From contig CAIJFT010000418.1 of the NCBI GenBank assembly GCA_903820035.1, forward strand, positions 1-40,666: a DNA stretch of 40,666 nt, read 5' to 3'. The notes beneath the pieces are model-generated. The model was given only the letters and a program-made list of their open reading frames with translations, was not told where the DNA came from and did not search any database. A program made the position numbers and the translations under genes. Of the stretch, positions 1,676 to 30,025 are shown piece by piece. Origin of the DNA: an uncultured Opitutia bacterium (GTDB taxonomy: Bacteria; Verrucomicrobiota; Verrucomicrobiia; Opitutales; Opitutaceae). Every line of letters begins with the position of its first letter. Within the stretch, counting starts at the first letter, position 1.

Positions 1676-1870
1676 GCGGTGGTTTTCATGGGGACGATTC
1701 GTTTCCTCCCGGCGGCGGACCCGGCGGAGACGCGAATGTTAGTGATCATCCAATCGCCCTGCGGAAAGTTCAAAAAGACCGCTCGCCTGTCCCGCGCGAG
1801 CCGGCGGGGGCATTTTTTCGCTGCGCCGTTTTCCGCGGCACCCCATTGACCGCGCTGATATACTTCGCCG

Positions 1871-2062
1871 ATGTGCGACCAAACCTCCGCCCCCACACCC
1901 CTCCCCTCCGTGGCCGAACAGCATCTTCAACCCCGCCCCCGCGAAGCGCGCGCGATCAAGCGATCGCAGCGGCGGGCGGCGCACTATTCCTCGCGGCCAC
2001 CGCGGTCCTTGACGGACTTCCGCGCGCAGTACGACCGGATTCAAGGTTCACTACGCGGTTGA
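1871..2062 (+). CDS. Small 63-residue ORF overlapping the kinase-like gene
   Basis: An ATG at 1871 opens a short, basic, Arg/Pro/Ser-rich frame. Its C-terminal part (about SLTDFRAQYDRIQGSLRG) looks like a possible amphipathic helix. Its stop TGA at 2060-2062 overlaps a TTG at 2059-2061 in the kinase-like gene's frame, giving a TTGA overlap of the kind that couples translation of two genes. I recognise no family. It could instead be the true N-terminus of the kinase-like gene separated by a frameshift. The short length and lack of a known match keep confidence low. Confidence 0.35.
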   Translation: MCDQTSAPTPLPSVAEQHLQPRPREARAIKRSQRRAAHYSSRPPRSLTDFRAQYDRIQGSLRG

Positions 2063-2580
2063 ACGCCGGGGTGCGGACCGCCGAAGCGGAGGCGTTGCGG
2101 GCGTTCGCGGTCGCGGCGGGCCTCCTGCTCGACGGGGCGCGTTTTGAAACCACCTGGCAGGCGCAGGGCGAAATGGGCGGCGCGGAAAACGACATTCACT
2201 ACGACGAAACGACCGGGCGGGTGTGGAAGCGCAACCGCGTCGACGTGATGCACGTGTCGTGGCGCCAGTTCTTCGAGCGCATGCTCCTGCATAACCTGTA
2301 CTTCCCGGAGGCCCCGCTCCGGCTCGAAGGATTCGTCGACCATGAGGCTCGTCTGTGCCCAGTCTTCACCCAACCCGATGTGGTGGCGGAACGCGGCGCC
2401 TGGCGCATCGAAGTGGAAGACCTGATGCAGGCGCGCGGCTATCATCGCGAAATGTCAGACGATTACGCCAACGACCTCCTGCAGGTGGCGGACCTCCACC
2501 CCGGCAACGTGCTGGTGGATGCCGACGGTGAACTGCACGTGATCGACCCCGCGATCTTCCCCGCGTTTCCCGGTGCTTGA
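2059..2580 (+). CDS. Orphan kinase-like protein of the polyvalent-protein kinase type
   Basis: About 173 residues if translation starts at the TTG at 2059. The same frame is open back to 1846, but the upstream residues look like out-of-frame low-complexity sequence. The C-terminal part carries ADLHPGNVLVD followed by HVIDP, the catalytic-loop and metal-binding layout of APH/UbiB-like kinases: Asp145, Asn150 and Asp163 in this numbering. VWKRN near residue 55 could supply the ATP-binding lysine. The pattern fits the 'polyvalent protein' kinase family, which usually occurs as a domain of very large phage or conjugative-element proteins and also as short stand-alone genes. Substrate and role are unknown. 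Neither neighbouring gene looks phage-derived. A TTGA overlap links it to the 63-residue ORF. Confidence 0.6.
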   Translation: MNAGVRTAEAEALRAFAVAAGLLLDGARFETTWQAQGEMGGAENDIHYDETTGRVWKRNRVDVMHVSWRQFFERMLLHNLYFPEAPLRLEGFVDHEARLCPVFTQPDVVAERGAWRIEVEDLMQARGYHREMSDDYANDLLQVADLHPGNVLVDADGELHVIDPAIFPAFPGA

Positions 2581-2675: not shown

Positions 2676-3155
2676 TCACGTTTCAGTCTTGACCCCTTCG
2701 ACAAATCCCCAGGCTTCGCGTTTAGTCGGCACCGTTCCTGGCTTGGCCCGCTCGGTGAGTTCGGACAACCGCTCGGCCAATTTCACGAGCCGGAGATCGC
2801 CGGGCACCCGGGTGGAATCAGCCCCGAGATCAATGAGCCGCTCGCGCGGTACCAGCCCCGCCGGCAACGCCGAAGAAAACGCCAGCAGCGTGCCGCCCCC
2901 GCGCACCCACTCATCGAGCACCGATATATCGGCCACCGTCGCCCCGCGCGCAAGAATCACGACCTTCCGCGCCGCCAGATCGGCGGCCGAAATCGACTTC
3001 GCCTCGTCGAACGGAATGTCGAACCGCGCGTGAAACGGCTTGAACGCGGTCGCGCGCACAAACCCCAAATCCGCCTCGGCTGTGCCCACCAAGAGCACCT
3101 CGGCGGCAAACGCCGGCGCCATCAGCAGTGTGAAAATGGAAAGACGAAGTTTCAT
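2676..3155 (-). CDS. Small exported protein with amidotransferase-fold-like segment
   Basis: 159 residues with a typical Sec signal peptide (MKLRLSIFTLLMAPAFA). The body reads like the core of class I amidotransferase/DUF4350-like domains: a strand (VLLVGTAE), a later strand ending at VVILARG, then VLDEWVRGGGTLLAFS, the usual helix followed by the Gly-rich turn. No catalytic Cys-His pair is evident, so it may be a binding or structural domain. The ATG lies within the stop of the preceding gene (ATGA, 4-base overlap), so it is the last member of the sigma/FecR/receptor/pyruvyl-transferase operon and is probably translated in step with it. Its function is unknown. Confidence 0.65.
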   Translation of the reverse strand: MKLRLSIFTLLMAPAFAAEVLLVGTAEADLGFVRATAFKPFHARFDIPFDEAKSISAADLAARKVVILARGATVADISVLDEWVRGGGTLLAFSSALPAGLVPRERLIDLGADSTRVPGDLRLVKLAERLSELTERAKPGTVPTKREAWGFVEGVKTET

Positions 3156-4522
3156 GTGCGGACGGAGACGCGCACGGCAGCGATCATGCGCTGTTGGATT
3201 TTTTCCACGCCCGCCATCGCCTCGCGTGCGCGGGCGCGGGAGGCCGTTGGATCGGCCGTGATCTTTCCGAGCGTGGTCGCGAGTTGAGCGCCACCCGTCT
3301 CTTCGATTTCAAACAGCCAATCGCCAAGCCCGAGGTCGCGAAACATGTGGCCCTTGAAGGTATCGGTCGGCTGCCGCACGTGCATCACCGGCGTCCCCGC
3401 GGCGAGGCTCATGATAAGCGAATGGGGCTCGACGCCGACGACACAGAGCGACTGCGCGTAAACCGATGTCGCCTCGTCCGGCATCCAGTAGCGGTCGCGC
3501 CAAACGACCGAACGGCGCACGTCGCCAGGAAGTTTTTCAAGGATCTGGGTGCGGCCCAACTCCACCTGATAGGTCATCTCCGCGCAAACGAGCACCTTCA
3601 TTTTGGTGGCCTTCGTCCACGCCGTAATCATGTCCCGCAGGCGCGCGTGATCGGATTCGACGGTGCGGGTGTTGATGGTGTCGCGCGTACGTTCCGTGTC
3701 GTTGCGCGCCCCCGTCGGTGAGTAGCGCCGGTCCTCCTTCATCAAGTGATAGGGCGTGTAACGCAGCCGCGGGATGACGCAGACGAACTTGCCCGGTTCG
3801 AGCCCGCTTGCGCGGAGAAACTCACCCGCCGCCGCATCATTGCGCAGATCAAAACCGAACACGGTATCCGGGCCGAACTCGAGGAGCGGCGTCTTGATTC
3901 CTTCGCGGCGCAGATAGTCGCGGGAGATCGTGTCGCGGAGAAAGACAAACGCCGCGCCCTCCACCAGCGCGCGCATCGCCGGATCGATGCCACCGAGCGG
4001 ACGTTTCTCCATCAGCGCACGCAATTCGCGGAGCGTTCCGCCCTCCGATTCACGGCCGGCGCCGATACGGGAAACGGGGTCGAATGTAATCCCGAGCACA
4101 CCGTAGGGTTTGCCCGTGATCTTCTTCCACGCGGTGAAATCCGCCGACGCAGAAAAATGCGCGGCCGAGGCGTGCACCGCGATATCGCACTCCGCGAAGG
4201 CGCGCGCGAGTTCCGGCGTCGACGGCTTTCCGTCTTTTCCGATGATACCGTCCACGAAGCGCACTTTCGGAAACGCCTTCACGAGCAGTTCGCGCGCGCC
4301 GAATTCGAGATTGCGCGGCCAGAGCGTGAGCTCGGCCTCCGGGAAATGGCGCTGGAGCAGCGCAAGCGCGCCGGGCGTGTGCGCGATGTCGCCGATGTTC
4401 ACACTCTGCCACGCCGAGCGGACGAGCACGCGGGGAGCGCGCGCGGCTGCGGCGTAGAGCGGGCGCGCCGCCAGTGCGCCCGTGGTGGCAGCGGCGAAGC
4501 GGAGGAAGTGACGACGTTTCAT
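3152..4522 (-). CDS. Tat-exported polysaccharide pyruvyl transferase family protein (second copy)
   Basis: 456 residues from the ATG at 4522, chosen because it gives a clean twin-arginine signal (MKRRHFLRFAAATTGALAARP) and overlaps the previous stop as ATGA. The mature part has the marks of the pyruvyl-transferase/CsaB superfamily: an N-terminal VNIGDIAHTPGALALL segment (the N-x-G-D loop), a central CVIPRLRYTPY strand, and a C-terminal VEPHSLIMSLAAGTP segment that corresponds to the conserved His-containing loop, where the usual Arg of S-x-R-x-H is replaced. It is a full-length paralogue of its upstream neighbour. Known family members move pyruvate from PEP onto cell-wall sugars in the cytoplasm, and there is no obvious PEP supply outside it. 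An exported member may therefore use another donor or only bind glycan. Substrate unknown. Confidence 0.75.
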   Translation of the reverse strand: MKRRHFLRFAAATTGALAARPLYAAAARAPRVLVRSAWQSVNIGDIAHTPGALALLQRHFPEAELTLWPRNLEFGARELLVKAFPKVRFVDGIIGKDGKPSTPELARAFAECDIAVHASAAHFSASADFTAWKKITGKPYGVLGITFDPVSRIGAGRESEGGTLRELRALMEKRPLGGIDPAMRALVEGAAFVFLRDTISRDYLRREGIKTPLLEFGPDTVFGFDLRNDAAAGEFLRASGLEPGKFVCVIPRLRYTPYHLMKEDRRYSPTGARNDTERTRDTINTRTVESDHARLRDMITAWTKATKMKVLVCAEMTYQVELGRTQILEKLPGDVRRSVVWRDRYWMPDEATSVYAQSLCVVGVEPHSLIMSLAAGTPVMHVRQPTDTFKGHMFRDLGLGDWLFEIEETGGAQLATTLGKITADPTASRARAREAMAGVEKIQQRMIAAVRVSVRT

Positions 4523-5862
4523 GGAGAGTTCAGGGCGCGTCCGATGGCTTCGGTCATCCCCTGCTGCATGGCGGCCACCTTGGTCATCGCCTGCCGCACG
4601 TGCGCCCGCGCCTTCGGCAGGTCCGCGTGAATCGTCCGCAACCTCTCCCACAGCTCGGTGCCCGAGGTCTTTTCGATTTCGAACAGCCAGTCGCCCACGC
4701 CCACATCGCGAAACATTTGGGCTTTCACGCTATCGACCGGCTGCCGCAGGTGCAGCGTCGGCGTACCGTTGGCCAGCGCGATGATCGGCGAATGACACTC
4801 GACGCTCACGACGGCCCGCGCCCGCGCATAAATCGAAGCCGCCTCGTCCGGCAGCCAGAAGCTGTCCCGCCAAATCACGTGTCTTTTCACGTCATCAGGG
4901 AGCGGATCGATCAACTGCTCCTTCGCCGTCTGAATTTGATACGTCATCTCGGGGCACGCGATCACCTTGGCTCCGGTGTTGCGCACCCAAAGTGTGATCA
5001 TCTCGCGCAACGGCGCGTGATCGCTCGTCGCCGTCGCGTCATTGAGCGCATCGACCGCATAGTCGGTCTTGGCGCGCGGGAGATTTTTCACCCGGTAGTA
5101 AGGCGTGTAACGCAGCCGCGGCACGACACAGAGGTAGTCCTCGCCCTTGAGCCCCTGCCGCCGCAGCCACTCGTCCGCCCGCGTCTCATCGCGCACCGCG
5201 ATGGCGAAACAGCCTTCGGGTCCGAAATCGAGCTGGCCAGGCCTCAACTTCTGTTGCCGCAGGAATCGCAGCGACAGCGTATCGCGGCAAAATATGAACG
5301 ACGCCTTTTCGTAGAGCGCACGCGCGCCGAATTTTCGCTCGAACGCCCCTGCCGGCACCCGGTCGATCGCCTCCTTTAACTCATCCAGCGTCGCTCCGCC
5401 GGGGCGCGTCGCCCGGTCGGTGATCGGATCGAAGGCCGAGCCGAAAAACCCATAGGGCCGGCCCGTCGCGGCCCACTCGACGTAGGTCCGCGCGTTCTTC
5501 GCGGGCGAGGTGAAGAAGTTCGCCGTCGCCCACGCCTCGGCCAGATCGGCATTCGAAGCTTTGCCACGCGCGTCGATCTCTCCCTCGACCATGCGCAACC
5601 TCGGAAACGCCCGCTTCAAAATCTCGCGCTCGCGCTCGTGCAGCGCCCAGGGCCACAGCGTGACCTCGGCCTGGGGCAGGTGTTGGTAGAAAAGCCGGAT
5701 CGTCCCCGGCACGCGCCCGCTGTCGCCGATGTTTTCGAACTGCAGCGCTTCGCGCAGCAAAATACGCGGGTGGATCGGTGCCGCGGCCGCTCGCAGCGGC
5801 GGGGCAACCGCGCTGAGCGCAGCGCCACCAATGAGCGTACCGACGAAATCGCGACGGTTCAT
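4519..5862 (-). CDS. Tat-exported polysaccharide pyruvyl transferase family protein (first copy)
   Basis: 447 residues. The start ATG at 5862 directly abuts the TGA of the receptor gene (TGAATG), and the protein begins with a twin-arginine signal (MNRRDFVGTLIGGAALSAVA). Family landmarks are FENIGDSGRVPGTIRLF near the mature N-terminus, CVVPRLRYTPYY in the middle, and VECHSPIIALANGTPTLHLRQP near the C-terminus. Conserved blocks shared with the second copy (TLWPW/TLWPR, MFRDVGVGDWLFEIEKT/MFRDLGLGDWLFEIEET, VIWRDSFWLPDEA/VVWRDRYWMPDEA) show a local gene duplication. Its position right behind a TonB receptor suggests a periplasmic role on a glycan or polymer handled by that receptor. That role is inferred, and the enzyme activity is not demonstrated by the sequence. 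Confidence 0.75.
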   Translation of the reverse strand: MNRRDFVGTLIGGAALSAVAPPLRAAAAPIHPRILLREALQFENIGDSGRVPGTIRLFYQHLPQAEVTLWPWALHEREREILKRAFPRLRMVEGEIDARGKASNADLAEAWATANFFTSPAKNARTYVEWAATGRPYGFFGSAFDPITDRATRPGGATLDELKEAIDRVPAGAFERKFGARALYEKASFIFCRDTLSLRFLRQQKLRPGQLDFGPEGCFAIAVRDETRADEWLRRQGLKGEDYLCVVPRLRYTPYYRVKNLPRAKTDYAVDALNDATATSDHAPLREMITLWVRNTGAKVIACPEMTYQIQTAKEQLIDPLPDDVKRHVIWRDSFWLPDEAASIYARARAVVSVECHSPIIALANGTPTLHLRQPVDSVKAQMFRDVGVGDWLFEIEKTSGTELWERLRTIHADLPKARAHVRQAMTKVAAMQQGMTEAIGRALNSP

Positions 5863-8800
5863 TCAGAAGGTCCCCTTGAGGCCAAACGTGTAGGCCGCGC
5901 CGAAGAGATCGATCTGGCGGGTGCGCGCATACGCCGGCGTGTTCGGTGCGTAGGATTCGGTCACGTTCGACATGTTCGTGAGATTGCGGACGGTCGCGTA
6001 GGCACCGAGGCGGCGCGAAAAGCGCCACTCGACGTTCACGTCGATTTGGAGGCGTGATTTCAGATATGTGTAGGTGCCCGCGGGAACGTTCGCGCCGATA
6101 ACCGCGGTCTGGCGGCGCGGGCCGGTGTAATTCCAATTGAGCTTCGTGCTGAAACGCGGGCGGTCCAGGCTCACACCCCAGTTGATCGTGCGGTCGGTGA
6201 AGCCGCTGAAATCCGCCGTCGTCGCACCGCTGAGCTGCATCTCCGTGCCGTTGAAAAACACGCCCACGCCCCGCGCCCAGTTCGGCAAGAATTCCAACCG
6301 CTGGCGCCATGCATACTCGACGCCGGTCACACGCGCGTCGCCAACGTTGAACTGCGACACGAGGTTGTAGCCGACATAGTCGTCACTCAGACCGTATTTC
6401 GCCAAATCCTCCGCCGTGGCAATCGTCGTCACGCTGCCGAAGAAATCGGCGACGTCTTTGCGAAACGCGCCGACCGAAAGCAGCCCGCCCTTGTTCGGGT
6501 AGTATTCGAGCGTCACATCCCAGTTGTCGGCCGTCCACGGCGTGAGGCCCGTGTTGTTGACCGTGATCGTGCGCGTGGCCGCAGTCGGATCGCTGACCGT
6601 CGTGCCCGGGATGATCTGCACGAAGTTAGGCCGACCCAGCGTCTTCGCGTAGGCGAAGCGCGCGATCAAGTCCTCGCGGAGATTGAGGGTCGCGTTGAAG
6701 CTGGGATACCAGTCGGCGTAGTGGCGTTTCGAATGGGCGCCGCGATCTTGATATTGCAACCGGGCGAGCACGATTGCGTCGGTGGTTACGCGCACCGGGC
6801 GCCCGTTGACAAGAATCAGGTTACCCTGCGCGTCCTGCTGGTAAGTCGCGCGGAGATCGTTGAGCACGCCGTAACCGTCGTCGTCCGTGCGCTCGTAACG
6901 CGCGCCGCCCACGAACCAGAGACGGTTTTGCCACAGCCGCGCGTCGGCCCGAAGGTAACCGGCGGAGACGGTCTCGGTGATCTTGCGCGAGTTGTTGGCG
7001 CTCGTGCTGATCGCAGAGGTATCGTTTAACACGAAGTAGTCCGGGTGTTGCTGGTAAAGCGCCCACAGTTTCGCGGTACTCTGCCACCGGCGCGGCTCCA
7101 GGCCCCACGCCATGTGCTGGCCGGAGTAGCCGGTGGCCTCAAGGTCGTAGCGGCCGACGACGTCGTCTGCCGTGTTCGCGACTTTGTCCGGGCCGACAAA
7201 ATTCCGCGAGAGTTGCGGATTGCGCATATCACGGTCTTCGCGGCGCAGATCGAGGCCGGTCTTGAGCGTAAGCGGAATACCCAGGTCGAAATCGCGGCGC
7301 GCATTCACATTGAAGTTGCCGACGACAGCGAGCACGTTGGCCTGGTTGCTGCGCGCGCTACCGATGGTGGCATTGTTGATATTTGTGCCGTCCGCCGGCA
7401 CGCCCGCCGGCGTGGCGGCCGACATGGTGGTGGGGCGGATCGCGTTAATTCCGGAGAAGTTCACGGTCACAGTCCGCAACGTGTAGGCGGCCTGCTCGAA
7501 AAATGCCTCGTCCACATCGCGGTAGTGCACGGTCGAGGTGGAATATGCCCCGCCCGCGTCGAGTTTCCAGACGAGGCCGGTGTGGCGCCACCTGGCGTTG
7601 GTGAGGATGGTCGCCCCCGCCTTGCGGCGCGACTGCGTCGAGTAGGCCACGGAGCCCGCCCCGGCGTTGCCGCGCGTGAAGTCCGGTCCGTAGGCCGCCA
7701 CCGTGCCAACCGTCCACGTCTGATCAACGATGTCGGTGAACTGGTTCGTGCCCGAATACGAAGCGCCGACCGAGAGCACATCGCGCGGCGTGAACTTCCA
7801 ATCGGCGGTCACACTGAACGATTCACGGGACAAAATCGCGGGCGCGCTTGGCAGCCGGTAGCTGAGCAGCGCGGGACTCGCCGCGGTGCCGGCGGCGTTG
7901 TTCGTCCCCGTGGGCGACCACGTGGGCTGCGACGAGTAGGACTGCTGGAAGCGCGAGAAATACGTGCCGTTGAATGTGAACCCAAACGCCTTCGACACAG
8001 GGACGATGTAAGAAAAATCCAGGCCTGGACGAATGCGCCAGCCGGTCGTGCCCTTACCCGGACCGGACTTCTCGCCGAGCGCGAGATACATGCCGTTGGC
8101 CGATTCGAACACGTGGTAGTTGAACTGCGGGCGCGCCAACTCGAAGGCGCTTTTGCTGATCACGTTCACCGCGCCGCCGAGGGAATTGGCCGCCATGTCG
8201 GGCGTGGGAGTCTTGCTCACCTCGACGCGTGCGATGTTGTTCATCGATAGGCCGACGAGTTCGAAATTGCGGTTCGTGCCGCTCGTGGCCGCGGAGGCGA
8301 TGGGGTTGCCGTCCACGGTGAGCGGCGTGTTGTTCGCCGGCACGCCGCGCACGGAAACGGTATTCGGCTGGAAGCCCGCCATGTCGATCGTCACCCCGGG
8401 CACGAACTTCAGAAACGCGCCGACGTTACCCTCCCCGATGTCGCCATACTCGTCGCCGGAGACGACACTCTTGATGTTGCCCGCGAAGCGCTGCTCGTTG
8501 ATCGCGATGGCCGCGGCGTTCGTTTCGCGCGCCTCGGCGACGACGAATTCGCCGAGCGCCACGACACTCTCGTCGCCGGCGCGCGGCGTGCGATCGAGTT
8601 CGAAATCGCGGCGCACCGTCCGCCCGGCCGACACCACGACCCGCACCATTTGCGGGGCGAGGCCGGTGAAAAACACCCGCACGCTCACCTCGCCCGCCGG
8701 CACACCCGCGAGGCGAAATTCGCCCGACTCGTCGGTGAAAGCATCCAGCGTCGTGCCATCGACGGTGATGCGCGCGTTGGTGAGATAGCTCTTGCTCGTG

Positions 8801-9249
8801 AGATTCAACACGCGACCCACCAGCGTGCCCGCGCCACTAGCGCGGACGGCGGTCGCCGGAGCTGGCGCCGCCGCGGGGGCGTTTGGGTCGGGGGCCCTCG
8901 CCACGGCAAACGTGCCACTCCGCTCGTCGAAGGTCGCGCGCAGCTCCGTGCCCGCAAGCAGCCGGCCGATGCCGTCGCGCAAGGTGAACTCACCTTCCAC
9001 CGCCGCCGTGCGCACGCCGCGCACCTCGTTCGTCGGATAGAAAACCTGCTGGCCCGCCTGCTGCGCGAAACGTTTCAAGGTCTCGCTCGCGTCTCCCACC
9101 GGAACCGCAAAGGTCTTTCTGGCCTCGGCGGCGCGCACCGGCAGCGCGAGTAGCAGCGAGAAAATTGCCACCACGAGCGGACCGCCCAACGCAAAGCGGG
9201 CGGCGGGGCCGAGGGCGGCAAACCGAAGAAACGGGCGGGGACTTGTCAT
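5863..9249 (-). CDS. TonB-dependent outer-membrane receptor with STN signalling domain
   Basis: 1128 residues from the ATG at 9249; a TTG at 9273 with a possible AGGA upstream is an alternative that adds eight residues. Order of domains: signal peptide (about 1-40, ending PVRAAEA); STN domain (about 46-118), which in FecA-like receptors contacts the FecR regulator; a carboxypeptidase-regulatory-like beta domain (about 141-218, GRVLNLTSKS...DFELD); a short ALGEFVVAEA segment; the plug with FLKFVPGVTIDMAGF and VSVRGVP; then the beta barrel, ending in the usual aromatic GLKGTF. The STN domain together with the adjacent sigma factor and FecR shows a receptor that both transports and reports ligand presence. 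The ligand is not deducible. The next gene begins at the base after its stop. Confidence 0.92.
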   Translation of the reverse strand: MTSPRPFLRFAALGPAARFALGGPLVVAIFSLLLALPVRAAEARKTFAVPVGDASETLKRFAQQAGQQVFYPTNEVRGVRTAAVEGEFTLRDGIGRLLAGTELRATFDERSGTFAVARAPDPNAPAAAPAPATAVRASGAGTLVGRVLNLTSKSYLTNARITVDGTTLDAFTDESGEFRLAGVPAGEVSVRVFFTGLAPQMVRVVVSAGRTVRRDFELDRTPRAGDESVVALGEFVVAEARETNAAAIAINEQRFAGNIKSVVSGDEYGDIGEGNVGAFLKFVPGVTIDMAGFQPNTVSVRGVPANNTPLTVDGNPIASAATSGTNRNFELVGLSMNNIARVEVSKTPTPDMAANSLGGAVNVISKSAFELARPQFNYHVFESANGMYLALGEKSGPGKGTTGWRIRPGLDFSYIVPVSKAFGFTFNGTYFSRFQQSYSSQPTWSPTGTNNAAGTAASPALLSYRLPSAPAILSRESFSVTADWKFTPRDVLSVGASYSGTNQFTDIVDQTWTVGTVAAYGPDFTRGNAGAGSVAYSTQSRRKAGATILTNARWRHTGLVWKLDAGGAYSTSTVHYRDVDEAFFEQAAYTLRTVTVNFSGINAIRPTTMSAATPAGVPADGTNINNATIGSARSNQANVLAVVGNFNVNARRDFDLGIPLTLKTGLDLRREDRDMRNPQLSRNFVGPDKVANTADDVVGRYDLEATGYSGQHMAWGLEPRRWQSTAKLWALYQQHPDYFVLNDTSAISTSANNSRKITETVSAGYLRADARLWQNRLWFVGGARYERTDDDGYGVLNDLRATYQQDAQGNLILVNGRPVRVTTDAIVLARLQYQDRGAHSKRHYADWYPSFNATLNLREDLIARFAYAKTLGRPNFVQIIPGTTVSDPTAATRTITVNNTGLTPWTADNWDVTLEYYPNKGGLLSVGAFRKDVADFFGSVTTIATAEDLAKYGLSDDYVGYNLVSQFNVGDARVTGVEYAWRQRLEFLPNWARGVGVFFNGTEMQLSGATTADFSGFTDRTINWGVSLDRPRFSTKLNWNYTGPRRQTAVIGANVPAGTYTYLKSRLQIDVNVEWRFSRRLGAYATVRNLTNMSNVTESYAPNTPAYARTRQIDLFGAAYTFGLKGTF

Positions 9250-9347
9250 GGGATGGGGTTGAACTGCTACCAAGACGCATTCCTGCGCCGAACCCCGTAA
9301 CTAAATCGTCGGAATTCTTTCCGGCGTCGCTGGACGAGCTCCGCCAC

Positions 9348-10406
9348 TCAGCGCGGCCCGCCGGCCGCCGCCGACCGGTGCAACACGATCATGCCGTCGG
9401 CGCGACGCTCGACCGCCACATGGAAGGTAGTCTCCAGGAGGCGCACAAAACCCTCGACGTTGTCCGACCGCAGCGTCGCACCGATGGGCAGCGCGGCGAG
9501 AATCGGATCGGCGACAACGAGCTTCACGCGATTGTCGCGATTGAACTCCGCCACGACCTGCGCGAGCGGCGCATCGGCAAACTCGAGGTGCCGCGGCTGC
9601 CAGGCGAGCAGGCGCGCCATTTCCGTCGGAGCGACCGCGGTGATCTTCGGCATAGCGTCGGGCTCAGCCAACGAAAGCACCGCGCGCTCGCCGACCTTCA
9701 CGAGCGCCGGCGCCCAAATCTCCACCGCCGCTGCGGAGGGCGGCGGCCGATTCACACTCACCCGTCCTTCCGTCACGAGCACCTCCACGTTTTCCGGTTG
9801 CAACCGCACATTGAACGCCGTGCCGACGGCCCGCACGCGCACGCGATTCGCCTCGACGACGAACGGCCGCAGGGAATTTTTCGCGACGGTGAAATGCGCC
9901 TCGCCCCGCACCAGCCGCACCAGCCGCTCCTCGGCGCTGAACCGCACTTCGACCTCCGCGCCGCGGTTCAAATCGATGGTCGAGCCATCCTCGAGCAGTC
10001 GCCGGAGCACCGGCGCGATTTCGGCCGCAAGGAGCGGCGTCTCCGGGATCTTTTCTGCCCGCGGCGCGGCGCTCTTCGGCCAGACGATGAACGCGAGCGC
10101 GAGGCCCGCCGCCACAAGACTACCCGCGACCCACCCATGCCGCGATTGCCACGCCCGCCGCTGCACCAGCAAATCAGGATTGGGCCACGCCCCGTGCTCG
10201 GGCCGCCATTGCGCAAGGCGTTTCAACCCCTTCTCGGTCTGCTGATGCCGCGCGAGCCACTCGCCGTGGCGCGGGTCCTCGGCCAGCCATAGAAACAGCT
10301 CATCCTGCTCCGTCGCCGTGAGCCCGCGGTCGCGTTTCGCGAGCCACGCTGCGGCGCGGTGAATAATCTCGGCCTCGTGGCCCGGACTGGAGGAGCGAAA
10401 GTCCAC
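9348..10406 (-). CDS. FecR-like membrane sigma-factor regulator
   Basis: 352 residues with a GTG start at 10406, seven bases after the sigma-factor stop. The N-terminal cytoplasmic part (about 1-90, with AAAWLAKRDRGLTATEQDELFLWLAEDPRH) is the DUF4880-type helical domain that contacts the sigma factor. A single membrane span follows (about 92-110, WVAGSLVAAGLALAFIVW). The periplasmic FecR beta domain covers about 130-230 (LEDGSTIDLNRGAEVEV...RVRAVGTAFNVR). The last 80 residues (PLAQVVAEFNRDNRVKLVV...) resemble an STN/DUF4974 fold that docks on the receptor. This is the middle link of a trans-envelope relay. In this family the protein may act as anti-sigma or as activator, and the sequence does not decide between them. 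Confidence 0.9.
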   Translation of the reverse strand: MDFRSSSPGHEAEIIHRAAAWLAKRDRGLTATEQDELFLWLAEDPRHGEWLARHQQTEKGLKRLAQWRPEHGAWPNPDLLVQRRAWQSRHGWVAGSLVAAGLALAFIVWPKSAAPRAEKIPETPLLAAEIAPVLRRLLEDGSTIDLNRGAEVEVRFSAEERLVRLVRGEAHFTVAKNSLRPFVVEANRVRVRAVGTAFNVRLQPENVEVLVTEGRVSVNRPPPSAAAVEIWAPALVKVGERAVLSLAEPDAMPKITAVAPTEMARLLAWQPRHLEFADAPLAQVVAEFNRDNRVKLVVADPILAALPIGATLRSDNVEGFVRLLETTFHVAVERRADGMIVLHRSAAAGGPR

Positions 10407-10413
10407 GACGGAT

Positions 10414-10941
10414 TCAGCCCGAGCAGCGACGGCGCACGAATTCCGTGCAGCGCCTGATCCCGATGGTCACCTGCGCCTCGACCGTGCGCACGGAGATGCC
10501 GAGTTGCGCCGCGATTTCCTTCTGCGGCAGGCCGTAGACATTGCGCAGCGTCATGACCTGACGGCAACGGTCGGGCAAAGCGTGGATGGCCTGGGTCATG
10601 AGTTCGATTTCCTGATTACGGGCGACGGTCTCCGCGACATCTTCACCCGCCTCCAAGACGCACAACTCGTCCCAACCCCCTAAAGGTTCCGCGTGGGTGA
10701 TGCGGCGGCGGCGGAAAAAATCGAGCGCGAGGTTGCGCGCCGTCGCGAAGAAAAACGCCTTGGGCAGGCGCACCTCGCGTTTGCCGCGCGCCGCGATGAG
10801 CCGCGCGTAGGCGTCCTGCACGATGTCGTCCGCATCGGTGAGCTGCGGAAACCGGCTGTGCAGCCACGCCCGCAGCATCGGCTCGTGCGGTTGCACGTGC
10901 TCGGCGAGCCAGCGGGCGGTCTCGGGATCTTGCGGGGGCAC
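10414..10941 (-). CDS. ECF RNA polymerase sigma factor, FecI-like
   Basis: 175 residues. The GTG at 10941 is the only plausible start, because an in-frame TAG lies three codons upstream. Sigma region 2 is seen as DADDIVQDAYARLIA and KAFFFATARNLALDFFRRRR, and region 4 as LPDRCRQVMTLRNVYGLPQKEIAAQLGISVRTVEAQV, with the helix-turn-helix that reads the -35 element. It heads the minus-strand series sigma, FecR, receptor, two pyruvyl-transferase-like genes and a small exported gene, with gaps of 7 and about 98 bases and then direct abutment or overlap, so it most likely activates its own operon on receptor signalling. I could not identify a convincing sigma-specific promoter upstream. Confidence 0.92.
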   Translation of the reverse strand: MPPQDPETARWLAEHVQPHEPMLRAWLHSRFPQLTDADDIVQDAYARLIAARGKREVRLPKAFFFATARNLALDFFRRRRITHAEPLGGWDELCVLEAGEDVAETVARNQEIELMTQAIHALPDRCRQVMTLRNVYGLPQKEIAAQLGISVRTVEAQVTIGIRRCTEFVRRRCSG

Positions 10942-11161: not shown

Positions 11162-12258
<1,097 letters not shown>

Positions 12259-21301: not shown

Positions 21302-22798
21302 TCACGACTTTGATTCGAGGATATAACCCTCTTCGCCGTGATCGGAAAAATCGAGGCCTTCCTGCTCGGACTCGATCGACGTCCGCAGGCCGATGAACGT
21401 GTTCACCAGAAAAGCGATCGCCGCGGTCGCGGCGACCGACAGCACGATCGTGAGCCCCATCGCCTTGAGCTGTTCGAGCCACAGGGTACGACCGACCACA
21501 TCCTTGAGGTTGGTCGCGAGGTTGCCGTTCACCGCCGCAGTCGCGAATAAACCGGTCAGCAACGCGCCGAGAGTTCCGCCCACCGCGTGCACCCCGAAGG
21601 TGTCGAGGGCGTCGTCGTATTTCAGGAACGGCTTTAGCGTGGAACAGGCGAGGAACGGCACAGCCCCGGCCAGTACGCCGAGCAGCACCGACGAACCCGG
21701 AGTGATGAAACCGCAGGCCGGCGTCACCACTACCAGCCCAGCCACCGCGCCGGAGCACAGCCCGAGCACACTCGCCCGGCGATGCAGGACGAACTCCAGC
21801 GCGCCCCAGGTGAAGGCGGCGATCGCCGCGGCCAGCGTCGTGGTGGTGAAGGCGTTGGCCGCCACGCCGTCGGCCGCCACCGCCGAGCCCGCGTTGAAGC
21901 CGTACCAGCCGACCCATAACATGCCGGTGCCGATCAGGCAGAGTACGAGGCTGTGCGGCGGCATGGGCGTGCGACCGTGGCCGAGGCGCGGCCCGATCAT
22001 GAGGCAGAGCACGAGGGCCGACCACCCCGAGGACATGTGCACCACGGTGCCGCCGGCGAAGTCGATCGCCTTGATCGAGGCTCCGGCGTTCCACACGCCG
22101 TTCATGTAGCCGGTCGAGCCCCACACCATGTGGGCCAGCGGAAAGTAGACGACGAACATCCAGCAGGCGGTGAAGACGAGCACCGCGGTGAACTTCATGC
22201 GCTCCGCAATCGCGCCGACGATCAGCGCGGGCGTGATGATCGCAAACATGAGCTGGTACATCGCAAAGATATTCTGCGAAACCCACGCCGCGTAATCGGT
22301 GTTCGGTGCGCTATCGATGCCGGTCATGAAGAAATATTCGGAGCCGCCGAGGAACGGGCTGTTGAAGCTCTTGCCGAAGACCAAACTGTAACCGAAGGCC
22401 CACCACAGGATGATCACGAGGCCCGCGATGCCGAGGCACTGGGCCATGACGGAAAGGACGCTCTTCGTTCGGACCAGTCCGCCGTAGAATAGCGCGAGCC
22501 CGGGCAACGTCATGAAAAGCACCAGAGCGGTGCAGAGCATCATGAAACCGTTGTGGCCCGGTCCGGCGGTGCCCACGGACGGAGACGTGAGGCCGGCGGG
22601 CACGGCGCCCTTGGCGTCCTTCAACGCGGCCCCCGGGTCGCCGTTGGCAAGATAGGCCTCCAGCCCGGCCACGCGCTGTTCGAGCGTGGGCGCGGGCACG
22701 GGGGCCGGCACCGGGGCCTGGGCCCCGAGGCGGCAGGTGCAGAAGAGTGCGACGGACAGCAGGAGTAGCCGCGGGAGCGGGAGATGCAGGAGTTTCAT
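21302..22798 (-). CDS. amt: Ammonium transporter Amt, copy 1
   Basis: 498 residues from the ATG at 22798. A signal peptide (MKLLHLPLPRLLLLSVALFC) and an exported leader of about 60 residues (EQRVAGLEAYLANGDPG..., ending before HNGFMMLCTALVLFM) precede the usual eleven-helix Amt core. The pore histidines are both present: His254 in DFAGGTVVHM and the His of DTFGVHAVGG, so it should be a standard ammonium channel or transporter regulated by PII. It is the last gene of the amt/glnK run and has no PII gene after it. A terminator lies between the preceding glnK and this gene, so it needs a promoter in the 75 bases upstream. I find no sigma54 site there. Confidence 0.95.
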   Translation of the reverse strand: MKLLHLPLPRLLLLSVALFCTCRLGAQAPVPAPVPAPTLEQRVAGLEAYLANGDPGAALKDAKGAVPAGLTSPSVGTAGPGHNGFMMLCTALVLFMTLPGLALFYGGLVRTKSVLSVMAQCLGIAGLVIILWWAFGYSLVFGKSFNSPFLGGSEYFFMTGIDSAPNTDYAAWVSQNIFAMYQLMFAIITPALIVGAIAERMKFTAVLVFTACWMFVVYFPLAHMVWGSTGYMNGVWNAGASIKAIDFAGGTVVHMSSGWSALVLCLMIGPRLGHGRTPMPPHSLVLCLIGTGMLWVGWYGFNAGSAVAADGVAANAFTTTTLAAAIAAFTWGALEFVLHRRASVLGLCSGAVAGLVVVTPACGFITPGSSVLLGVLAGAVPFLACSTLKPFLKYDDALDTFGVHAVGGTLGALLTGLFATAAVNGNLATNLKDVVGRTLWLEQLKAMGLTIVLSVAATAAIAFLVNTFIGLRTSIESEQEGLDFSDHGEEGYILESKS

Positions 22799-22873
22799 CC
22801 GGGGACGAGCCGCATCAGCACGATCAATGCCGCGGACGGGGCAGCAGTGGGGATTTCGCGGAAAATACCCGCC

Positions 22874-22912
22874 AAAAAAGCCGGGCCGGACCCCGCGAAG
22901 GGTCCGGCCCGG
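22874..22912 (-). terminator. Terminator of glnK copy 1
   Basis: A perfect 13-base GC-rich stem (22912-22900 with 22893-22881), a 6-base loop and then CTTTTTT on the minus strand. It separates glnK copy 1 from amt copy 1. Confidence 0.92.
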
Positions 22913-22936
22913 TTGACTTCGAACAGGGTAGCCGAG

Positions 22937-23287
<351 letters not shown>

Positions 23288-23304
23288 TTAGGTGTTGGGA
23301 AAAC

Positions 23305-24837
23305 TCAGGATTTCGACTCGTAGATGTAGCCTTCTTCGCCGTGGTCCGTGAGGTCGAGCCCCTCGCGCTCCGCGTCGACCGACGGGCGAAGGCCTAGGAC
23401 GGCCTTCACGAGGTAGGCGATGACGACCGTCGCGACGATTGAGAGGATCAGCGTCAGGCCGATGGCCTTGAGCTGCTCGAGCCAGAGCGTCTTGCCGACG
23501 ACGTCTTTTAGGTTGGTGCTCAGGTTGCTGTTGACCGAAGGCGTGGCGAAGATGCCGGTGATGAAGGCACCCACCGTGCCACCGACGGCGTGGACGCCGA
23601 AGGTGTCGAGGGCGTCGTCATACTTGAACAGGCTCTTGAGCTTGGTGCAGGCGAGGAAAGGGACGAGACCGGCGATCAGGCCGACCCACATGGCCGACGT
23701 GCTGTTGATGAAACCGCAACCAGGCGTGACCACGACGAGACCGGCGACGGCGCCCGAGCAGAAGCCGAGGACGCTAGCCTTGCCGCGGGTGATGTACTCC
23801 AAGGCGGCCCAGGTGAAGGAGGCAACGCCGGTGGCGAGCGTGGTGGTGGTGAAGGCGTTGGCCGCGACACCGTCAGCGGCAACCGCAGAGCCTGCGTTGA
23901 AGCCGTACCAGCCGACCCAGAGCATGCCGGTGCCGACCATGCAGAGCACCAGGCTGTGCGGAGGCATCGGGGTTTTGCCGAAGCCGAGACGGGGCCCGAG
24001 GATGATGCAGAGGATCAGGGCGGACCAACCCGAGGACATGTGCACCACGGTGCCGCCGGCGAAGTCGATCGCCTTGATGGAGGCGCCGGCATTCCAGACG
24101 CCGTTCATCAGACCCGTGGAGCCCCACACCATGTGGGCGAGCGGAATGTAAACGACAAACATCCAGATGAACACGAAGGCCATGATGGCGGAGAACTTCA
24201 TGCGCTCGGCGATCGCACCGATAATGAGGGCCGGGGTGATGATCGCGAACATCAGCTGGTACATCGAAAAGACGTTTTGCGATACCCAGAAGGCGTAATC
24301 CGTGTTCGGCGCCGCATCGACGCCGGCGAGGAAGAAGTACTCCGTGCCACCGAGGTAAGGGCTGTTGAAGCTCTTGCCGAAGACCAGGCTGTAACCGACC
24401 GCCCACCAAATGATCGTGACGAGACCGGCGATGCCGAGGCATTGCGCCATGACTGAGAGCACGTTCTTCGTGCGGACGAGACCGCCGTAGAAAAGGGCGA
24501 GGCCGGGCAGCGTCATGAAGAGCACGAGAGCCGTGCAAATCATCATGAAGCCGTTGTGACCGGGACCGGCGGTGCCGACCGACGGGGTCGTGAGACCCGC
24601 CGGGATCGTGGCATTACCGTCCTTATCCTTGGGGCCGACCTTGAGCACGACAGTCGGGTCACCATTACCCAAATACGCCTCGAGTCCGGCGATACGCTGT
24701 TCAAGGGTGGGCGGCGGAGGCGCGGGCGGCGTAGCGGCCGCGGGCGGAGTTTGGGCAAACAGCGATCCAAGGCCCAGCCCTGCGGTGAGGGCCAAAGTGG
24801 CGAGGAGCTTCGGGCGACGGGAGCGTGAACAGGTCAT
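23305..24837 (-). CDS. amt: Ammonium transporter Amt, copy 2 (sigma54 promoter)
   Basis: 510 residues from the ATG at 24837, chosen because it opens a proper signal peptide (MTCSRSRRPKLLATLALTAGLGLGSLFA); a start 13 codons earlier adds only polar residues. The exported leader has EQRIAGLEAYLGNGDPTVVLK, and the eleven-helix core starts near HNGFMMICTALVLFM. The twin pore histidines are intact (His266 in DFAGGTVVHM, and DTFGVHAVGG). It forms a two-gene unit with glnK copy 1, 29 bases downstream, the standard arrangement for a transporter and its gatekeeper. A perfect -24/-12 sigma54 promoter 111 bases upstream points to nitrogen-starvation control by an NtrC-type activator. A structured leader lies between promoter and gene. 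Confidence 0.96.
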   Translation of the reverse strand: MTCSRSRRPKLLATLALTAGLGLGSLFAQTPPAAATPPAPPPPTLEQRIAGLEAYLGNGDPTVVLKVGPKDKDGNATIPAGLTTPSVGTAGPGHNGFMMICTALVLFMTLPGLALFYGGLVRTKNVLSVMAQCLGIAGLVTIIWWAVGYSLVFGKSFNSPYLGGTEYFFLAGVDAAPNTDYAFWVSQNVFSMYQLMFAIITPALIIGAIAERMKFSAIMAFVFIWMFVVYIPLAHMVWGSTGLMNGVWNAGASIKAIDFAGGTVVHMSSGWSALILCIILGPRLGFGKTPMPPHSLVLCMVGTGMLWVGWYGFNAGSAVAADGVAANAFTTTTLATGVASFTWAALEYITRGKASVLGFCSGAVAGLVVVTPGCGFINSTSAMWVGLIAGLVPFLACTKLKSLFKYDDALDTFGVHAVGGTVGAFITGIFATPSVNSNLSTNLKDVVGKTLWLEQLKAIGLTLILSIVATVVIAYLVKAVLGLRPSVDAEREGLDLTDHGEEGYIYESKS

Positions 24838-24875
24838 GCGCTTAGGTGGTTGTGATTTGGAGGGACCGGAAAACA

Positions 24876-24934
24876 CCCGGCGACCGGACTGACCGATCGC
24901 CGGGAGACTACGGGCCCACGACGGCGGGGGCCCG
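24876..24934 (-). promoter_or_regulatory. Two hairpins in the amt copy 2 leader
   Basis: On the minus strand, inside the leader that would start near 24937, there is a 7-base stem (24934-24928 with 24917-24911) and then an 8-base stem (24904-24897 with 24883-24876). Neither is followed by a T tract. They may affect mRNA stability or translation; no known riboswitch is recognised. Confidence 0.4.
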
Positions 24935-24947
24935 CTGCCCCTCGTTT

Positions 24948-24963
24948 AGCAACAGGCGTGCCA
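24948..24963 (-). promoter_or_regulatory. Sigma54 (-24/-12) promoter for amt copy 2
   Basis: The minus strand reads TGGCACGCCTGTTGCT, a full match to the RpoN consensus TGGCACG-N4-TTGCW with correct spacing between the GG and GC elements. The start point would fall near 24937, about 100 bases before the amt ATG. No clear NtrC-type enhancer palindrome was seen upstream. Confidence 0.88.
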
Positions 24964-25091
24964 ATCAACACGCCACCGCCAACAAGTCCGTTTCAACTTA
25001 GCCAAACCCTTCACCCGCGCCCCGTGCGGCGGAAAACATCCAACCAGCGTTCGTCGCTGACTACAGGGGTCTCGGAAATGCCTTACCCGGC

Positions 25092-25116
25092 TTGGAGCGT
25101 AGCACCCACGTGGTCC
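25092..25116 (+). repeat. Dispersed intergenic repeat, copy 2
   Basis: TTGGAGCGTAGCACCCACGT followed by GGTCC, matching the pattern of the other copies with more changes. It lies about 130 bases upstream of the sigma54 promoter. Confidence 0.35.
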
Positions 25117-25154
25117 GCGCTCGCTGCGTTGGGGGCAGGCCCGACCGCGCGGAC

Positions 25155-25183
25155 AAAAAAAGCGGTGCCGGTGACGGCGCCGC
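25155..25183 (-). terminator. Terminator of glnK copy 2
   Basis: A 9-base stem with one mismatch (25183-25175 with 25170-25162), a 4-base TCAC loop and seven T residues on the minus strand, 43 bases after the glnK stop. Confidence 0.85.
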
Positions 25184-25226
25184 ACAAAAGCGAAGGGAGT
25201 GGGAGCGGTGCGACCCGGGCGGTCGC

Positions 25227-25586
<360 letters not shown>

Positions 25587-27092
25587 TCAGGACTTGGCGT
25601 CGAAGATATAGGCTTCCTCACCATGGTCGCTAAGGTCAAGGCCTTCGGTCTCATCCTCGATGGTCGGCCGCAGGCCGATAACGCGATTCACGATCAGGGC
25701 GATCAGGGCGGTGCCCAACACCGCCAGGGTCAGGGTGACACCGATCCCCTTGAACTGCTCACGCCACAGGGAATGACCGACGACCGCCTGGAGATTATTG
25801 TTCAGATTGGGATTAACAGTGGCTGTGGCAAAAATGCCCGTGATGACCAGACCGACCGTGCCCGCCACGCCATGGACGCCGAACACATCCAACGCGTCGT
25901 CATAGCGCAGCCAGCCCTTCAATTTTGTGCAGGCGAAAAATGAGACTACGCCGCCCAGTGCACCGCACAGCACGCCACCCGTGGAGTCGACGAAGCCGCA
26001 GGCCGGCGTGATCGCCACGAGGCCGGCCAAGGCGCCGGAGCAGAATCCGAGGACGGAGGCCTTGCCCCGCACCAAATACTCCATGAACGCCCATACTCCC
26101 GCCGCCACGCCCGCCGCGAGCGTGGTGGTGGTGAAGGCGCTCGCCGCAACGGCATCGGCCGCGATCGCCGACCCGGCGTTGAAACCGTACCAACCCACCC
26201 AGAGAATCCCCGTACCGGTTACCGTTAAGATGAGGCTGTGCGGCGGCATCGGGGTCTTCCCGTACCCGAGGCGCGGACCGACCATCATGCAGAGGATCAA
26301 CGCGGAATAGCCGGAGGCCATCTCAACCACCATGCCGCCGGCGAAATCAACCGCCTTGATTGCCGCTTCGGGGTTGGCGAGGCCATTCATCCAACCGTTC
26401 ACGCCCCACACCATATGGGCCAGCGGGCAGTAGACAAACAGCAGCCAGAGCGTCGTGAAACCCAGCACCGCGGAGAACTTCATCCGCTCCACCACCGAGC
26501 CGATGAGCACCGCCGGAGTAATGATCGCAAAGGCCATCTGGAACATCGCGAAGACATTGTGCGAAACCCAAAATGAGTAGTCCGGATTCGGCGCTCCGCC
26601 GACGCCCCGCAGGAAGAAAAACTCCGTGCCGCCGATAAACGGGCTGCCAAAGCTCTTGCCGAAGACGAGACTGTAGCCGACCGCCCACCAAAGCAACGTC
26701 ACCCAGCAGGTAATGCCAAAGCACCACGCCACGACCGAAAGGGCGTTCTTGGTCCGCACCAGGCCACCGTAAAAAAGCATGAGCCCGGGCAGGGTCATCA
26801 ATAGAACCAACGCGGTGCTCACCATCATCCAGCTGTTGTGCGCCGGACCGGGCGAGCTCGCCGCCGGGGTCGTCAACCCGGCCGGCACTCGACCCGCAGC
26901 ATCTTTCAACGCCACGGTCGGATCCGAGTTGGCCAAATAAGCTTCAATGGAGGCCAATCGCTGCTCCACCGAGGGAATAGGAACAGGGACCACCGGAGCC
27001 GAGGACGCCGCCGCGAGCGGCGGGGTCACGCTAACGAAAATGACGCTCGCCAGTACGACGAGCGCCCGAAAACACACGGGGATTTTTTGCAT
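25587..27092 (-). CDS. amt: Ammonium transporter Amt, copy 3, with Glu at the first pore-histidine site
   Basis: 501 residues from the ATG at 27092, which opens a signal peptide (MQKIPVCFRALVVLASVIFVSV); a start 17 codons earlier is less likely. It has the same exported leader (EQRLASIEAYLANSDPTVAL) and eleven-helix core as its neighbours. The first pore histidine is replaced: the segment reads DFAGGMVVEM, with GAG (codon at 26324-26322, residue 257) where copies 1 and 2 have CAC. The second histidine is kept (His407, DVFGVHGVAG). The yeast Mep1/Mep3 transporters carry the same His-to-Glu change and differ from Mep2 in transport behaviour. This copy is therefore likely to be functional but with altered kinetics or pH dependence. 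It is the most diverged of the three and forms a unit with glnK copy 2. Confidence 0.95.
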   Translation of the reverse strand: MQKIPVCFRALVVLASVIFVSVTPPLAAASSAPVVPVPIPSVEQRLASIEAYLANSDPTVALKDAAGRVPAGLTTPAASSPGPAHNSWMMVSTALVLLMTLPGLMLFYGGLVRTKNALSVVAWCFGITCWVTLLWWAVGYSLVFGKSFGSPFIGGTEFFFLRGVGGAPNPDYSFWVSHNVFAMFQMAFAIITPAVLIGSVVERMKFSAVLGFTTLWLLFVYCPLAHMVWGVNGWMNGLANPEAAIKAVDFAGGMVVEMASGYSALILCMMVGPRLGYGKTPMPPHSLILTVTGTGILWVGWYGFNAGSAIAADAVAASAFTTTTLAAGVAAGVWAFMEYLVRGKASVLGFCSGALAGLVAITPACGFVDSTGGVLCGALGGVVSFFACTKLKGWLRYDDALDVFGVHGVAGTVGLVITGIFATATVNPNLNNNLQAVVGHSLWREQFKGIGVTLTLAVLGTALIALIVNRVIGLRPTIEDETEGLDLSDHGEEAYIFDAKS

Positions 27093-27217
27093 GCAGGGAG
27101 GTACAAATGAGCAACCTTCATGCCTAGCATGCGAGTTATTCACCTATTACTGCACTTTTATGACATCTGGTTTTTCTGCCAATTCCTTGCGCGGCGGACA
27201 CTGCCATAACCGGACGC

Positions 27218-27243
27218 AAAAAAGCCCCCGCTCTCGCGGAGGC
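27218..27243 (-). terminator. Terminator of glnK copy 3
   Basis: An 8-base stem (27243-27236 with 27231-27224, one G-U pair) with a GAGA loop, then six T residues on the minus strand, 40 bases after the glnK stop. Confidence 0.9.
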
Positions 27244-27283
27244 CAAAAGTCGCGAACTTGATCTTCCCTGAAGCAACTCGAGC

Positions 27284-27763
<480 letters not shown>

Positions 27764-29746: not shown

Positions 29747-29854
29747 GGAAACGTGGATCGGACAGCACAACCCAGCGTCGCACGGGAGGGCAAACAGATT
29801 CTCTGAACGGCCCGAGTCGCGCCGGGTCTTTCCGCTTCGGGCCCGACGGGAGTC

Positions 29855-29899
29855 CAGCCCGCTCGCGAGCACGGTCTGGGTGCGCCCGCGAGCGGGCTG
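29855..29899. repeat. 13-base perfect inverted repeat upstream of aspS and the sugar kinase
   Basis: CAGCCCGCTCGCG (29855-29867) and its exact complement (29887-29899) are separated by 19 bases, in the divergent gap between aspS and the PfkB gene. No T tract flanks it. It could be a strong hairpin in either leader, a REP-like element or a regulator site. Confidence 0.6.
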
Positions 29900-30025
29900 A
29901 GCGACGACAGCCATACGAACCAGCGGGCGGTCCGGAAACGAAAGCATGTCCGCGCGACCGTCGCGTCCAGTGAACGGTTGACCCGCCCCGTCCTCCGCTC
30001 TTCGCTCCGAGCCCTTTTTGTATCC

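Follow-up and report, generated by a model that had tools for sequence, protein, structure and literature searches.

A 40,666-nucleotide stretch from an uncultured Opitutia bacterium (family Opitutaceae; assembly GCA_903820035.1, contig CAIJFT010000418.1), hereafter the window, encodes a run of genes in which an extracytoplasmic function (ECF) sigma factor, a FecR-type regulator, and an STN-domain TonB-dependent receptor are joined to two proteins of the pyruvyl transferase family PF04230 that carry twin-arginine signals, here called PPTa and PPTb. The run is very probably a cell-surface-signalling operon for glycan uptake, and PPTa and PPTb are, judging by their sequences, likely to be exported enzymes. 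The favoured reading as a whole, a glycan uptake and catabolism operon with exported enzymes that do not use phosphoenolpyruvate (PEP), has in our judgement slightly less than an even chance of being right. The evidence for it includes the conserved linkage of receptor and PF04230 genes in related genomes and the replacement of a PEP-site arginine by an acidic residue throughout the family.

The sigma factor gene (FecI-like; 10414..10941, on the minus strand like the rest of the run) matches Pfam Sigma70_r2 at 8e-11 and Sigma70_r4_2 at 1.2e-13, and NCBIfam sigma70-ECF at 81.6 bits (cut-off 42.9). It is followed after 7 bases by the FecR-type sigma regulator (9348..10406; Pfam FecR 1.3e-16, with FecR_C and DUF4880 below their cut-offs) and, after a further 98 bases, by the receptor (5863..9249), which has an N-terminal STN domain and a carboxypeptidase-regulatory-like domain (Pfam STN 3.3e-7, Plug 1e-12, barrel 1.5e-24; TIGR01782 342.5 bits, cut-off 310). 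The second gap is counted from the receptor ATG at 9249; a TTG at 9273 is a possible alternative start. The receptor gene abuts that of PPTa directly (TGAATG), and ATGA overlaps join PPTa to PPTb (4519-4522) and PPTb to a sixth frame (3152-3155). PPTa (4519..5862, minus strand; 447 residues, start MNRRDF, loop VECHS) matches PF04230 at 3.1e-9, and PPTb (3152..4522, minus strand; 456 residues, start MKRRHFLRF, loop VEPHS) at 2.5e-13. The six minus-strand genes, their gaps, and their junctions were all found again as a preliminary description of this DNA had given them, and the three components of the FecI/FecR/STN-receptor relay that it named are likewise present, encoded together and with Pfam or NCBIfam matches above cut-off. 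In those two databases five of the six frames find a family, as given above; for the last one (2676-3155) the Pfam and NCBIfam scans of the window proteins gave no match. The window belongs to a 6.05-Mb assembly of 469 contigs; among relatives with a name, Opitutus/Opitutae metagenome bins come nearest to it.

We searched 95 genomes, including the window's own, and found the family in 29 of them (E up to 1e-10). Genes in the 59 stretches fetched were called with our own script, so that start positions and small genes are to be taken as estimates. To label receptors we used a profile seeded with that of the window, and one further cluster (c0), a member of which has a Plug match just below cut-off, was counted with them. 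A gene was taken as linked if a receptor lay within three same-strand genes upstream, and other genes of 300 or more residues served for comparison. Across 29 high-similarity loci (L039-L066 and the window, with the near-identical L040 counted too), a receptor lies upstream of 33 of 42 PF04230 genes, with three reaching the locus end and six lacking one, versus 22 of 123 other genes (24 reach the locus end). A receptor is present in 24 of the 31 gene runs of these loci, and FecR or sigma genes as well in 13. The PF04230 genes often stand in tandem copies close after the receptor, and the association recurs outside the genus (L048, L168), in L168 (Emticicia) with the PF04230 protein beside a real SusD. 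The linkage is thus kept in related genomes, and the proposal that the relay is tied to twin-arginine PF04230 proteins is supported by it. Carriers extend across phyla: the best 79 of at least 503 relatives are our named loci (in 11 of them the gene caller detected no member of the family), and the titles of the records mention Verrucomicrobia, Acidobacteria, Planctomycetes, Bacteroidota-type genera, and Lentisphaerae. A search of phage proteins with PPTb gave no match. In L100, the genes for PPTa and PPTb have a second receptor-like gene between them (6659-9532; Plug 1.9e-8).

PF04230 is the sole Pfam or NCBIfam family above cut-off in PPTa and PPTb (51 and 37.6 bits in the two proteins, cut-off 25.3), which confirms their membership of the pyruvyl transferase family; S_layer_CsaB (TIGR03609) reaches 25.4 and 18.2 bits, below its equivalog cut-off of 213.1. 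We aligned the two proteins with 79 family members of the named loci, filtered for lengths between 360 and 480 residues (alignment A2, n = 81; mean column identity 46%). N42, D45, R196, E315, W346, E350, H367, and K390 are invariant in all 81, and position 365 is Glu in 74, including both window proteins, and Asp in seven; a partly overlapping set of 64 sequences has Glu in 58 and Asp in six. Controls were drawn from 45 PF04230 or CsaB-profile loci in the phylum plus Escherichia coli WcaK (46 in total). A filter on length and His motif, with R, S, T, F, E, D, or G permitted at the equivalent of position 365, kept 27 of these; removal of L205 as a wrong frame left 26 ordinary PF04230 proteins. 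Their residue at this position is Ser in 16, Arg in eight, Thr in one, and Phe in one, with Glu or Asp in none of the 26; WcaK of E. coli K-12 has Arg335. The PEP-site Arg and His (R196, H367) align in 26 of 26 controls, and in a tree the family is separate from the controls with a support of 0.999.

The residues of the PEP site in Pvg1p and CsaB are R217/R148, R337/R306, H339/H308, and K361/K328 (PMC10435577), to which R196, E/D365, H367, and K390 of the family would correspond. In the accessible part of that paper, the role of R337/R306 comes from docking and no mutant is described. The arginine two residues before the PEP-site histidine, a feature of PEP-dependent ketal pyruvyltransferases, is what the family lacks, as noted earlier for the VECHS and VEPHS loops and now seen to be the rule (an acidic residue in all 81), and the site's other Arg, His, and Lys are all kept. 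PPTa has in addition an Arg in place of His48, shared by six of the 81 members, has lost two residues of the GlySer loop, and falls in a clade of six with a support of 1.0; these changes suggest that PPTa and PPTb may differ in role. The two had been described as duplicated, and they are, but the duplication is old: they are 46% identical, and their last common ancestor spans 43 tree tips.

Export by the twin-arginine translocation (Tat) pathway had also been proposed, and it holds at the level of the motif. Both window proteins have an RR-x-F motif near the N-terminus, and a twin arginine is found in 65 of the 81 members. A Pfam profile match above cut-off is missing: TAT_signal scores 12.8 bits in PPTb (cut-off 22.7), and none is reported for PPTa. 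A TatC gene is present.

Structure prediction, which had been suggested as a check, gave a GT-B fold. The AlphaFold2 model of PPTb, built on alignment A2, has a predicted local distance difference test score of 92.5 and a predicted template modelling score of 0.90; in Foldseek and VIA-align comparisons it falls with GT-B proteins, and UDP-GlcNAc 2-epimerases have the highest Z scores (best among the matches listed, 3ot5_C: Z 24.1, root-mean-square deviation 4.5, 339 aligned). The active site was compared with that of CsaB through sequence, where the PEP-site arginine is replaced. The 50 fold matches listed do not include Pvg1p (5ax7), which speaks neither for nor against a relationship. A sequence search of solved structures gave no match for either window protein, and two profile matches to solved structures (E 0.013 and 0.92) were not credible.

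Between FecR and the receptor lies a motif, GTTACGG-N18-GTCTTGG (9270..9301, minus strand; 21 bases before the receptor ATG), which we take to resemble ECF promoters and which is a candidate FecI-type target. The orthologous loci L098 and L100 share both the motif and the 98-base gap. A promoter separating the relay from the genes behind it had been named as a point that would speak against their unity; the promoter-like motif seen here lies between FecR and the receptor, and we read it as support, because a FecI-type target promoter is expected at that place. Receptors in L046, L052, L057, L059, L061, L064, and L094 are preceded, at a distance of 14-95 bases, by variant forms (GGAAA/TGAAA-N14-N16-GTCT(A/T/C)GG). 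The scan took in 1.17 Mb, made up of the window, every fetched locus other than L040, and 10 of the 79 named loci; the pattern has 19 matches there, of which 12, at 10 sites, are intergenic and 14-95 bases before a receptor. It was derived from 13 FecR-receptor gaps, so that the test is largely in-sample; L046, L098, and L100 are outside the 13. The fetched set and the window hold 16 matches, versus 1.5 on average in shuffles that keep base composition only. The exact motif occurs once in the 6.05-Mb genome, as does a reversed control, and only its position is informative.

The sixth frame (2676..3155, minus strand), which begins with a signal-like stretch, had been described as a small exported protein, and this did not hold. 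What the frame encodes is the N-terminal portion (~149 residues) of a ~832-residue DUF4838/GH67N-like protein, and as a working part of the operon the small protein was rejected. The frame continues to 832 residues in L098, from an Opitutae bin whose PPTb is 95% identical to that of the window, and to 838 in L100; both intact proteins match DUF4838 (2e-32 and 1.2e-33), with the GH67 N-terminus below cut-off. DNA homology of the window to these loci ends at base 2707, the profile match to the long protein runs past a stop to 2610, and other matches to it in the window's genome are 28-32% identical. For these reasons the window's sixth gene is, on the assembled sequence, broken, with an assembly mis-join as the alternative to a true truncation. 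L040, on a contig of genome G025, matches the window at 99.96% identity for 9640 bases and diverges into other DNA at window position 2687, where the DUF4838-type gene of G025 is broken as well; the next 203 bases (L040 9641-9843) have a 99% copy in the window's own genome (contig C217, 13903-14105), beside which lies a frame matching a transposase family (HTH_Tnp_1, 3.7e-9). A plasmid search with the bases around the break gave no match. Just past the broken gene is a Kinase-PolyVal protein (1846-2580, plus strand; 2.1e-23).

The neighbours of the PF04230 genes in relatives were tallied in two sets, from which receptor, FecR, sigma, and PF04230 proteins were left out and for each of which the 25 commonest families were listed. 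In the high-similarity loci (89 proteins) these include PSCyt2 (6), 3-keto-disaccharide hydrolase (5), PSD1 (4), DUF1501 (3), FAD oxidoreductase (3), GDSL (3), and fucosidase (2). The second set, 101 of 106 proteins with five large ones omitted, includes LacI (6), sulfatase (5), heparinase-like (5), FAD oxidoreductase (4), mandelate-racemase-like (2), RraA (2), and GH28 (2). A second conserved family (c4; about 453 residues) lies just upstream of a PF04230 gene in seven loci (L051 5381-6679, L052 8264-9628, L061 7659-9032, and four more) and, by our gene calls, starts with an RR motif in five of them. It is strongly conserved and propeller-like, with PD40 matches below cut-off and no Pfam family above it, and it may resemble oligogalacturonate lyase. 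In L053 the neighbour is a chondroitinase-AC-like PL8 lyase. A xanthan lyase was considered for this gene and set aside, as chondroitinase AC is its strongest match among solved structures (5.9e-72) and xanthan lyases follow at 6.2e-24 and weaker; no link to xanthan is claimed.

The operon appears to serve the inducible uptake of a polysaccharide that it senses and that probably bears acidic groups. Binding of a ligand at the receptor would free the sigma factor, which would then transcribe the genes for the receptor, PPTa, and PPTb, and in intact relatives that for the DUF4838/GH67N-like protein. PPTa and PPTb would be exported and would work on the imported oligosaccharide in the periplasm. 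We know of no PEP supply in that compartment, and since the PEP-site arginine is now Glu or Asp as well, we propose that they would not transfer pyruvate from PEP. Arg196, His367, and Lys390 could instead hold a sugar carboxylate, with Glu365 (perhaps with Glu315) acting as acid/base in the hydrolysis or hydration of an alpha-carboxy ketal or enol ether. The target group would be a pyruvate ketal, which is the product of the ordinary PF04230-family reaction, or the unsaturated uronate end that polysaccharide lyases create, which has its alpha-carboxy enol-ether group in common with PEP. A site that keeps the carboxylate-binding Arg, His, and Lys and gains Glu for Arg would fit such chemistry, to which we nevertheless give a low probability. 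Equally doubtful at present is the broadest form of the idea, a widespread exported class, under relay control, that strips pyruvate ketals from imported acidic polysaccharides or hydrates their unsaturated uronate ends. The cell's own envelope polymer is a less likely target, since many of the nameable neighbours in relatives are catabolic, beside unrelated ones.

Several observations weigh against this reading. Over all fetched stretches and the window, a receptor lies upstream of 40 of 70 family genes (six reach an end) and of 41 of 265 other genes of 300 or more residues (55 reach an end), so that the link is mainly an Opitutaceae feature. Seven of the 19 motif matches are not before a receptor, and five of the 13 source gaps (L058, L063, L065, L066, L084) do not fit the pattern that the other eight fit. 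Unrelated proteins (Rsm22, histidine kinases, methyltransferases) are also near in the high-similarity loci, both neighbour tallies were made without a far control, and the 25 families listed for the closest set include no polysaccharide lyase, which weakens the uronate idea. Where near and far proteins were compared (102 each; 40 named loci chosen outside the close Opitutus group, the far set drawn at random from 30 loci, 25 families listed of 177 and 199), the near set is barely richer in receptors, heparinases, and beta-helices. The window's operon itself has no intact carbohydrate-active gene, its DUF4838/GH67N-like gene being broken. By our start calls, 16 of 81 members have no RR motif, and some look cytoplasmic, where PEP is available. 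The correspondence to the Pvg1p/CsaB site is mapped from sequence, with a short gap displacing the Lys390 column where the controls are aligned, and the substrate of PPTa and PPTb is only putative.

Other explanations draw on the same evidence. The position of the PF04230 genes close after the receptor, often in tandem, would suit non-catalytic, SusD-like glycan-binding helpers, as would the lack of SusD among the 25 families listed for Opitutaceae neighbours and the loss in PPTa of otherwise conserved residues; we find this unlikely, because all 81 members agree at eight polar or aromatic positions, at a mean column identity of 46%, and because the Emticicia protein occurs next to a real SusD. 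Genuine pyruvyl transferases that add pyruvate to an envelope glycan of the cell itself, supplied in the periplasm with PEP or some other donor, would explain the PF04230 score and the three of four PEP-site residues kept. The Ser in 16 of 26 controls further indicates that the fourth position can vary, and Pvg1p is reported to be active in the Golgi, with PEP transporters (PMC10435577). The acidic residue in 81 of 81 members versus none of 26 controls and the many catabolic neighbours nonetheless make such transferases quite unlikely.

That the proteins work in the manner of glycosyltransferases or epimerases, with a different donor, and share no more than ancestry with pyruvyltransferases, could be argued from their nearest solved folds, UDP-GlcNAc 2-epimerases and GT-B glycosyltransferases. 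A common fold shows no function, however, PF04230 is the only family above cut-off, and we are not aware of nucleotide sugars in the periplasm, so that we regard this as very improbable. We give similarly little credence to an ordinary sensing operon with passenger genes, one of several STN-receptor modules in the genome: the relay is a standard module and the genome has 11 STN matches, seven of them above cut-off, but the association with PF04230 genes recurs in many loci, including those outside the genus.

If the favoured reading of exported, non-PEP-using enzymes is true, it would add an enzyme step to the bacterial breakdown of acidic polysaccharides, and a new label would be due to proteins whose present scores mark them as biosynthetic pyruvyl transferases, the Arg-to-Glu/Asp swap offering a simple annotation rule. 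Among the papers listed, our search of the open literature met no title naming an enzyme that removes pyruvate ketals and no occurrence of "ketal hydrolase" or "depyruvylation", which makes a testable candidate useful. The system combines known parts in a form that the open papers searched did not describe.

Elsewhere in the window, a phage-integrase family protein (11162-12247, plus strand; 5.8e-14) lies upstream of the sigma gene. Three ammonium-transporter genes alternate in tandem with three genes for 112-residue P-II (GlnK-like) proteins (21302-27622, minus strand). A class II (D/K/N) tRNA synthetase (27959-31024, minus strand; start as chosen by our gene caller) has ~440 residues before its anticodon-binding domain with no Pfam match at 0.001.

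Compared with FecI/FecR/FecA signalling, the system has the same ECF sigma factor, FecR, and STN-domain TonB receptor in the same order, and before the receptor a candidate promoter-like motif, but its cargo consists of PF04230 proteins with export signals rather than iron transport genes. With CsaB, WcaK, and Pvg1p the proteins share the PF04230 profile, N-x-G-D, Arg196, Asp219 (Glu in PPTa), His367, and Lys390; they differ in the Glu or Asp that replaces the PEP-site arginine (Pvg1p R337, CsaB R306, WcaK R335), in the invariant Glu315, in a usually present twin-arginine signal, and in forming a clade apart from the 26 controls. The UDP-GlcNAc 2-epimerases resemble them in the overall fold of the predicted structure, whereas a sequence-family match is lacking and the export signal is a feature of the proteins described here. 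Polysaccharide utilization loci, like the operon as read here, combine a TonB receptor with exported proteins, and lyases, sulfatases, and glycosidases lie nearby in relatives of the window; the operon differs from them in having no SusD and a broken glycosidase-like gene, and in its sigma/FecR relay.

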